Below are positions 1,721-3,575 of a stretch of DNA of 64,000 nucleotides, piece by piece. A program made the translations under genes and the position numbers. Where the stretch lies: the NCBI GenBank assembly GCA_022241785.1, contig JAKOMP010000021.1, forward strand, positions 1 to 64,000, written 5' to 3'. The notes below the pieces were generated by a model, which was given only the letters and a program-made list of their open reading frames with translations, was not told where the DNA came from and did not search any database. This DNA is from Cyanocohniella sp. LLY. Lineage in GTDB: Bacteria; Cyanobacteriota; Cyanobacteriia; Cyanobacteriales; Nostocaceae. The number at the start of each line of letters is the position of its first letter. The stretch's first letter is position 1.

Positions 1721-1973
1721 CCTATTTACCTTGGAAATGCCTAATTACACTCACAAAGTCCGTTCTTGGCTGTAAATTAGTAACTCGTAATTACAAGACA
1801 TCAGCTTTTATCGGCGATGATAGGTTGACATCTGGAAATTGTTTGAGAAACTGGTATTTTTTTTACCTACAGCTAGCTGCGGTTACTCTAATGAGATATA
1901 GGATTGGTTCCCAGGTTTTATGCAGGGGTGATATATATTTGACGCTAGAGTTTATTTTGATTATTCTAGAAAT

Positions 1974-2837
1974 ATGAAAAAAATAAATCAAAAAGACACG
2001 GCGCAGTATGCAGACATTTTTGCAGCACTTGGGTCAGAATCTCGATTGGAAATTATGCGATTGATGTTTGCAACTTATCCACAGGGGATGACAGTAGGAG
2101 AGATTCAGGAAAAGCTGAAAATCCCGAACTCAACGCTATCACACCATTTAGAAAAGTTGCGAAATGAGGGATTAGTGAATTGCCAAAAAGACAAACAATT
2201 TCTCTGGTATTCAGCCGATGCTGAGACGATGGAAGATTTGTTGTCATTTTTGACTACAGGTAAAACCAAGAGCGATCGCCTCCCGGAATCATTTGATAAT
2301 ACATTCACACAAGAAGGGTTTATGATTGAAAATTTTTTTGCGTCTATTTTTGAAAGACTTTTTGGCTTGATATCTGAGAGATTCCATCTCAAGGGGTTTG
2401 AGCGATTTACCGCCAAAGCGATCGCAGTTATTACCATAGCCCAAAGTGAATCCCGCCGCTTAAGTCATCAATATGTCGGCACAGAGCAAATTTTGTTGGG
2501 ATTAGTCAGTGAAGGTAGTAATGCTGCCGAGATTCTCAACTCTATGGGAGTAAATTTAGAAAATGCTCAAATAGAAGTAGAAAAAATTATTGGTAAAGGT
2601 AACAAACTCACACCTGTAGATATTCCCTTTACTTCCAGAGCCAAGCAAGTGTTGGAACTATCAGTTGCAGAATCTCAAAAACTTGGTCACAACTACATTG
2701 GTACAGAGCATCTGCTGTTGGGTATTCTCCGAGAAGGTGCAAGAAGTATAGGACAGGGAGTAGCAATTAAGGTTTTGCAAAATCTGAGGGTAGACTTAAT
2801 TTCTTTAGAACAGCAACTACAAGTAGCTTTGAGTTAA
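1974..2837 (+). CDS. ArsR-type HTH fused to a Clp_N (ClpC N-domain) module
   Basis: The protein has 287 residues. Residues about 8-95 form an ArsR-family winged helix ([15 protein letters not shown], then [17 protein letters not shown] as recognition helix and wing). The classic metal-binding ELCVCDL motif is absent. After a linker of about 45 residues, residues 141-285 match the double helical repeat of the ClpA/ClpC N domain: two copies of a [13 protein letters not shown]-like motif ([14 protein letters not shown] at 165-178; [14 protein letters not shown] at 238-251). There is no AAA+ domain, so it is not an unfoldase. In ClpC this N domain binds adaptor proteins and marked substrates. I infer a DNA-binding regulator whose activity or stability is linked to Clp proteolysis. 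The regulated genes are unknown; the divergent protease gene and the gene downstream are candidates. Confidence 0.85.
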
Positions 2838-2927: not shown

Positions 2928-3575
2928 ATGACACAGGTAAAAGCAATCACAGAAGCAATTACCAGCTTGAGTGAAGCACAAAACCGCTTTGGCTTAGTTC
3001 GCATTGAGTCAGAGCAATTTTTCCCCGAGTGGTCTAGTGAATTACCCCAAATTACCGAAACAGAAAAAGCCTCCCTAGATGTACTACGCCGGAGATATTT
3101 GTACCATCGTGGCGAAGGTAATTTGTTAGCGGGAACAGTCATGTTGCTTGTTGTGTCGCCTTTACTTGCCCTGTCTGGATTTTACGATCCTCCTTTTAGA
3201 ATGAAAGCCGAATCATCAGTAGAGTTGGTACTGGATGATGGTGAAGAAGTGCTGCGTGGTCGAATTGACGTTTTGGTACTACAAAATCAGTTGTGGGTAA
3301 TGGTATTAGAGTGCAAAAAAACTACACTTTCGGTTTGGTCAGCTCTACCGCAAGCCTTAGCTTATCTCATGGCTAACCCTCAACCCGATAAACCTGTGTT
3401 TGGGATGTTGACAAATGGGGACGACGTTTTATTTATCAAAGTCAAGCAAGAAGTAGGCACAACACAATATGACTTGTCACGGGTATTTGCTCTATTTACA
3501 TCTGCCAAAGAACTGTATAACATTTTGCAAATTCTCCAGCGTATCGGTCAAACAATCTGTGATGATTTGCCGTAA
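2928..3575 (+). CDS. PD-(D/E)XK protein resembling the HsdR N-terminal domain
   Basis: The protein has 215 residues. Its central part carries a type I restriction R-subunit N-terminal-like core: GRIDVLVL followed about 20 residues later by VMVLECKK, i.e. the Asp and the Glu-x-Lys of the PD-(D/E)XK fold, then PQALAYLMANPQPDKPVFGMLTNGDDVLFIKV, here only cited as the typical continuation that ends in a conserved TNG-D turn. No helicase or specificity domain is attached, and no methyltransferase gene is adjacent. Stand-alone proteins of this type are common in cyanobacteria and their role is not established. It lies 90 bp downstream of the ArsR-Clp_N gene on the same strand, so the two may be co-transcribed. 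Confidence 0.7.
   Translation: MTQVKAITEAITSLSEAQNRFGLVRIESEQFFPEWSSELPQITETEKASLDVLRRRYLYHRGEGNLLAGTVMLLVVSPLLALSGFYDPPFRMKAESSVELVLDDGEEVLRGRIDVLVLQNQLWVMVLECKKTTLSVWSALPQALAYLMANPQPDKPVFGMLTNGDDVLFIKVKQEVGTTQYDLSRVFALFTSAKELYNILQILQRIGQTICDDLP

Follow-up and report, generated by a model that had tools for sequence, protein, structure and literature searches.

A cyanobacterial fusion of an ArsR-type winged helix to a ClpC N-terminal domain: a candidate autorepressor with a predicted internal start

The window analyzed here, a 64,000-nt stretch of DNA from Cyanocohniella sp. LLY, contains a gene in which a DNA-binding domain is joined to the N-terminal domain of the ClpC unfoldase, and it raises the question of what such a regulator would sense and which genes it would control. 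The reading frame begins with ATG and has no internal stop codons (Table 1). The N-terminal part of its product matched Pfam HTH_5 with a score of 46.4 bits versus a cut-off of 22, and residues 13–90 matched NCBIfam NF033788 with 68.7 bits versus a cut-off of 55, which identifies a winged helix–turn–helix of the ArsR/SmtB family. In the remainder of the protein Clp_N (PF02861) was matched in two stretches with 86.9 bits versus a cut-off of 20.7, and the protein is therefore a member of the Clp_N family with both repeats present. Residues 142–281 aligned with the N-terminal domain of chloroplast ClpC1 (5gui) with an E-value of 1.9e-47, and in Foldseek alignments the Clp_N domain was 52–59% identical to ClpC N-terminal domains (5gui, 3wdb). 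Unlike ClpC, however, the window protein lacks AAA+ modules, as the Pfam matches listed for it included no AAA+ family and the reading frame ends just past Clp_N; hence, it is not an unfoldase of the ClpC/Hsp100 type. The first-pass annotation had described an ArsR-type helix–turn–helix joined to a double Clp_N domain without the ATPase, and this description is confirmed by the Pfam and NCBIfam matches and by the ClpC alignment.

Table 1. Features of the fusion gene and its surroundings, in window positions
Feature	Position	Strand	Remark
ArsR-Clp_N fusion gene	1974..2837	+	287 aa ORF
ArsR/SmtB winged helix–turn–helix	1995..2258	+	residues 8–95
Double Clp_N domain, ClpC-type	2397..2828	+	residues 142–285
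Glu171, equivalent of ClpC E32, pArg2 pocket	2484..2486	+	GTE motif match
Glu245, equivalent of ClpC E106, pArg1 pocket	2706..2708	+	GTE motif match
−35 box TTGACG	1939..1944	+	TTGACA with at most one mismatch in 32/42 copies
Operator-like palindrome ATTTTGATTATTCTAGAAAT	1954..1973	+	directly 5′ of ATG
−10 box TATTCT	1962..1967	+	inside palindrome, ends 6 nt before ATG
Shine-Dalgarno-like run AAGAAGGG	2311..2318	+	upstream of codon 117
Predicted internal start codon (Met117)	2322..2324	+	conserved in close fusions
Predicted short product, 171 aa	2322..2837	+	amphipathic helix and Clp_N, inferred
Conserved amphipathic segment	2322..2381	+	residues 117–136
Papain-family protease, signal-like N-terminus (by eye)	539–1720	−	
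Small stand-alone HSDR_N-like protein, PD-(D/E)XK-type	2928–3575	+	

The AlphaFold model of the window protein had a mean pLDDT of 75.9 and a pTM of 0.54, with block means of 66–89 in the winged helix (first ten residues excluded) and of 73–95 in the Clp_N domain, while the linker (residues 101–141) was below 50. Foldseek placed ClpC N domains at the top, followed by ClpT2 and the C-terminal domain of Mycobacterium smegmatis ClpC2 (ranks 44 and 47). The same genome contains two further ORFs (848 and 816 aa). Their N-terminal domains show matches of 67 and 58%, respectively, and by length and domain both are ClpC-like.

The fusion is widespread among cyanobacteria. A survey of 388 genomes of the order revealed 22 close copies in 21 genomes, as well as at least nine divergent fusions, carried by nine genomes that belong to a single family (f13). 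Named genomes were also scanned, with the best 80 of 259 matches taken, and this added copies from Hassallia, Tolypothrix, Iningainema, Fischerella, Nostoc, Brasilonema, Chlorogloeopsis, Calothrix, Gloeocapsopsis, Mastigocoleus, and other genera. Filtering left 42 distinct close fusions, all cyanobacterial; nine duplicate proteins, two broken copies (L127 and L162), and the nine f13 fusions are not part of this set, and the start of L083 was set to the aligning ATG. One record labelled Candidatus Gracilibacteria (L126) encodes a protein identical to that of G552, a genome in the window's order, and its label was therefore read as a binning error. With 42 distinct cyanobacterial copies, the fusion and its recurrence are certain, and neither of the objections foreseen by the first-pass annotation, that the fusion could be unique to this genome or could arise from an assembly error, holds. 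Among the matches listed for 119 Acidobacteriota genomes none spanned both domains, and no plasmid record covered 80% of the query. Three broken copies of the fusion gene were seen, L099 (in G524), L127, and L162, the last two from metagenome assemblies.

Trees were built from 21 of the 42 close fusions, all nine f13 fusions, the eight cyanobacterial and 17 of 49 other proteins that consist of the ArsR domain only, and 12 ClpC-type domains. The helix–turn–helix tree joined the close and the f13 fusions with support of 86/81, and the Clp_N tree left this join open, so that the trees agree with a single fusion event without proving it. In the literature no description of ArsR joined to Clp_N was found, nor anything linking ClpC2 with cyanobacteria, and the matches listed for cyanobacterial internal starts or leaderless transcripts contained nothing on the fusion gene. 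One report describes ClpN repeats fused to vWA proteins, which is a different architecture (PMC7159879).

The region upstream of the gene bears on what the protein would control. A palindrome of the form TTT(C/T)-N10-GAA is present upstream of all 42 close fusions, with TTTC in 41 of them and TTTT in the window, and in 38 it lies at one fixed distance from the ATG and overlaps the −10 box. The −10 box likewise has a fixed place in 38 copies, with 6 nt between its end and the ATG, and the TTGACA-like −35 boxes are located 16–18 nt before it. This position of the −10 box means that transcription is expected to begin at the start codon or immediately beside it, and hence the transcript is predicted to be leaderless. 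In the winged helix itself, every position from residue 53 to 63 is kept in at least 41 of the 42 close fusions. When 12 genomes were scanned, the full site was found solely at the fusion gene in 11, with one mismatch in the 12th, and the other one-mismatch sites numbered 12 versus 10 for a reversed control pattern, using a search pattern that was derived from the sites of the fusion gene itself and would overlook looser sites. Taken together, the placement of the palindrome and the restriction of the site to the fusion gene suggest that the protein is an autorepressor dedicated to its own gene and that its transcript is leaderless. We regard repression of its own gene by the fusion protein as likely, and autorepression without a wider regulon as the simplest reading.

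A regulon in the window's genome was considered and rejected, as the exact site occurs there once. When up to three mismatches were allowed, 194 and 236 sites were counted in this genome versus 165 and 170 for the reversed pattern; this excess is modest, and some weak sites may exist elsewhere in the genome. Similar operator sites with one mismatch are located away from the fusion gene at G430:C1:3901727 and G389:C1:3916430, which belong to one genus. A second palindrome match was observed within 60 nt in L083, L125, L129, and L132, the second one in L083 being looser. The divergent f13 fusions, scanned at the aligned start, had the palindrome in none of nine cases.

A stress circuit had earlier been proposed from the neighboring protease and PD-(D/E)XK-type genes. 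At the other compared loci, relatives of these two genes are absent from the three genes on each side, and the idea is therefore without basis. In 13 of the 42 close fusions, for example L063, the fusion gene is directly preceded on the same strand by an aspartate carbamoyltransferase-like gene (named by eye).

The ancestry of the DNA-binding part was examined through proteins that consist of the ArsR domain only and are at most 62% identical to the N-terminal part of the fusion; these are mostly from Acidobacteriota, and the others are from cyanobacteria. They were treated as a set of 49 and a set of eight cyanobacterial ones, the latter without the broken copy L099 and without L093, which was set aside as its ORF starts late in the domain, close to a contig end. 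The palindrome precedes 30 of the 49 genes versus 0.33 expected from letter shuffles, and its strict form is present at four of the eight cyanobacterial loci. All of these relatives (49/49 and 8/8) contain a Cys-Cys pair, and in the alignment this pair coincides with the Cys pair of AfArsR (6j05). AfArsR cannot bind As(III) without its Cys95 and Cys96 (PMC8470949). At 28 of the 49 loci the gene immediately downstream belongs to the ArsM cluster, and ArsC-like, ACR3, and ArsI/CadI clusters are also found near these genes; the clusters were named by one representative each, which scored above the cut-off for ArsM, ACR3, and ArsI and below it for ArsC-like. Hence, the fusion is kin to arsenic regulators.

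The window protein contains the same domain as AfArsR, and its ArsR-only relatives share both the palindrome and the matching Cys pair, while the protein itself differs from AfArsR in having Clp_N instead of the cysteines and ars neighbors. Where the pair would end the winged helix the window protein has TTGK, and Cys is absent. In the aligned column Cys is found in 18 of the 42 close fusions, and the pair is kept in eight of the nine f13 fusions. No close fusion was among the members of the ArsM, ArsC-like, ACR3, or ArsI neighbor clusters, with three genes on either side considered. The Cys pair and ars neighbors of the ArsR-only kin, together with the loss of Cys in the window, are read as a change of input, which probably passed from arsenite to Clp_N.

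If Clp_N is the new input, its docking surface deserves attention. The groove and pocket residues of ClpC have counterparts in the window protein at F142 (F2), F219 (F80), K224 (K85), and E228 (E89), in addition to E171 and E245. Both glutamates of the phosphoarginine pockets are kept in all 42 close fusions, the equivalent of K85 in 40, of F80 in 39, and of E89 in 36, while that of F2 is kept in 26, with Tyr in nine more. In the average Clp_N column the commonest residue is found in 31.3 of 42 copies, and F2 falls below this value; for this reason the conservation of the docking surface is weak evidence. In the aligned sequences the two glutamates are invariant, K85 and F80 are highly conserved, E89 shows ordinary conservation, and F2 is poorly conserved. 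The first-pass annotation had made its proposal depend on a conserved adaptor-contact surface, and the docking surface is largely kept, with F2 as the exception. In a study of ClpC, both glutamates and K85 are described as binding or control residues (PMC12583610). Binding of a ligand by the Clp_N domain of the fusion is thus plausible. The adaptor MecA was not found in the window's genome by a search whose control was positive in Bacillus subtilis and Lactococcus lactis.

The gene also contains a candidate second start. Codon 117 is ATG in 39 of the 42 close fusions and GTG in one, while one copy has ACG (L109) and another ACA followed by ATG (L117). For the sequence before this codon, the calculated pairing with the anti-Shine-Dalgarno was −4.3 kcal/mol or stronger in 40 of 42 copies, a level reached by 15.6% of 1796 control internal ATGs. 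It was also reached by just 20% of 270 first-ATG ORF starts of neighboring genes, and a Shine-Dalgarno is therefore no general mark of starts there. The run in the window (−4.5 kcal/mol) is weaker than that of most relatives, and pairing is weak in L131 (−2.9) and L132 (−0.2). At the annotated start, where the value is +0.5 kcal/mol in the window and at best −2.9 in the others, there is almost no Shine-Dalgarno. Among 31 distinct upstream heptapeptides the mean pairing energy was −7.7 versus −4.8 in synonymous shuffles, and none of 2000 shuffles was as low. In a codon-bias scan of 274 columns codon 117 ranked first with a z of −6.95 (mean 0.27, s.d. 1.62), as calculated from 60 synonymous shuffles per column on related and hence dependent sequences. 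Its neighbors 116, 118, and 119 ranked next, and the next separate place was codon 69, with a z of −4.44. Raw pairing was slightly stronger near codons 264–266 (−8.4 vs −8.0), where no start codon is conserved. No conserved internal start was found in the nine divergent f13 fusions. In G445, which has two fusion copies on different contigs (L065 and L066), one copy has the GTG internal start.

Met117 is also the first residue of a conserved segment. The residues ahead of it are variable, conservation climbs at M117 and persists through the helix, and the 18-mer with the top hydrophobic moment in the window protein starts at residue 118. The segment has a mean hydrophobic moment of 0.56, with a shuffle p below 0.05 in 39 of 42 copies. 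The pairing and the codon bias make it fairly likely that a short product containing Clp_N but not the winged helix is made from codon 117.

The closest precedent is mycobacterial ClpC2, a Clp_N protein without the ATPase that represses its own gene through a palindrome 1–2 nt upstream of the ORF, from a transcript that the authors suggested to be leaderless (PMC10030653). Binding of cyclomarin frees ClpC2 from DNA, and ClpC2 climbs to 84-fold over ClpC1 and sponges the compound; it also slows ClpC1-dependent degradation of casein (PMC10030653). In both systems a C-terminal Clp_N domain lacks the ATPase, the palindrome adjoins the gene's own start codon with a leaderless transcript predicted, and two operators are present in some members, i.e., in some ClpC2 species and in some fusions. 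The groove residues F2, F80, and E89 are present in the window protein as well. On the other hand, ClpC2 starts with a four-helix dimerization domain and is described as contacting DNA through its Clp_N part, while the fusion has a canonical ArsR winged helix. Its palindrome is similarly placed but unlike the CGTCAAC-n5-GTTGACG operator that adjoins the ClpC2 ORF (PMC10030653), and the predicted internal start is a feature of the cyanobacterial fusion. With a different DNA-binding domain and a different operator, the fusion would therefore work like ClpC2 without being ClpC2, and the likeness is best described as convergence, because the DNA-binding part differs.

Clp_N proteins without the ATPase are also known in plants, where ClpT2 has a role in the Clp core. 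ClpT2 (4y0c) was matched by Foldseek and contains a double Clp_N domain, like the predicted short product, while it differs in its 24–25% identity and in having no DNA-binding domain. An unrelated second design was observed in L260 (G445:C15), L261 (G388:C5), and L265 (G101:C83), where one ORF contains a Cro/C1-type helix–turn–helix, a double Clp_N domain, and a Uma2-type nuclease domain, as assigned by Pfam for the G445 copy, by eye for the G101 copy, and by sequence match alone for the G388 copy. In the G445 copy a Met before FERFT is accompanied by a Shine-Dalgarno-like run (−5.6 kcal/mol).

These observations can be combined into a model in which an ArsR repressor has exchanged its arsenite-sensing end for the N-terminal domain of ClpC. 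A dimer of the fusion protein would sit on the palindrome beside the start codon of its gene and shut its own leaderless promoter. A ligand that normally docks on ClpC, whether an adaptor, an unfolded protein, or a peptide or protein directed at ClpC, would fill the Clp_N domain, and this occupancy would weaken DNA binding and induce the fusion gene. One transcript would then give both the full repressor and, from the internal Shine-Dalgarno and the ATG at codon 117, a Clp_N-only protein, which could mop up the ligand and protect ClpC. This decoy role is a reasoned guess by analogy, and such logic exists, since ClpC2 shows it. As a whole, an orphan ArsR-Clp_N autorepressor that is induced by Clp_N ligands and carries an internal-start decoy is the best explanation, and we consider the chances that all of it is right to be about even. 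The stronger statement, that this nested two-product gene, with its autorepressed leaderless sensor and internal-start decoy, is an independent cyanobacterial version of the ClpC2 strategy, is put forward tentatively. Four elements of this picture were absent from the first-pass annotation: an operator-like site, an arsenic ancestry, a likely internal start, and the precedent set by ClpC2.

The main rivals differ in the role that they assign to Clp_N. An autorepressor with a single product, in which Clp_N is purely sensory, codon 117 encodes a structural Met, and no short protein is made, would account for the conservation that begins at M117 and extends through a strongly amphipathic helix. 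It is nevertheless rather unlikely, as the upstream codon choice favors a Shine-Dalgarno past the needs of the amino acid sequence, the sole Val at position 117 is encoded by GTG, and the residues ahead of M117 vary. Somewhat less likely still is the proposal of the first-pass annotation that the fusion and ClpC compete for endogenous adaptors or substrates, so that the fusion reports proteolytic load. The invariant glutamates of the phosphoarginine pockets and the slowing of casein degradation by ClpC2 (PMC10030653) speak for it, while the operator pattern was found at no target gene besides the fusion gene, and MecA was not found in the window's genome; this proposal overlaps with the autorepressor–decoy model if the ligand is an adaptor.

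It has also to be considered that the Clp_N domain delivers the repressor to ClpCP, in which case the amount of repressor would be set by proteolysis. Clp_N proteins do contact the Clp machinery, but Clp_N is a docking receptor for which we know of no role as a degron, and this explanation appears improbable. Least probable by far is a protein that is still an arsenic regulator with Clp_N as an accessory: the palindrome that it shares with ArsR-only relatives beside ars genes and the Cys pair of most f13 fusions would fit, whereas the window protein has neither Cys, fewer than half of the close fusions have Cys in the aligned column, and the close fusions are missing from the ars neighbor clusters.

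If the autorepressor–decoy model is correct, cyanobacteria and mycobacteria would have reached a Clp_N autorepressor and decoy from different repressor families, which would suggest that ClpC is under attack in nature well beyond actinobacteria. The nested two-product reading would imply that ClpC-directed toxins are present around cyanobacteria, and the fusion gene would be a ready reporter for finding ClpC attackers. More generally, it would show that a one-component regulator can swap its input while retaining its operator, and that a single gene can encode a sensor and an effector as nested products.
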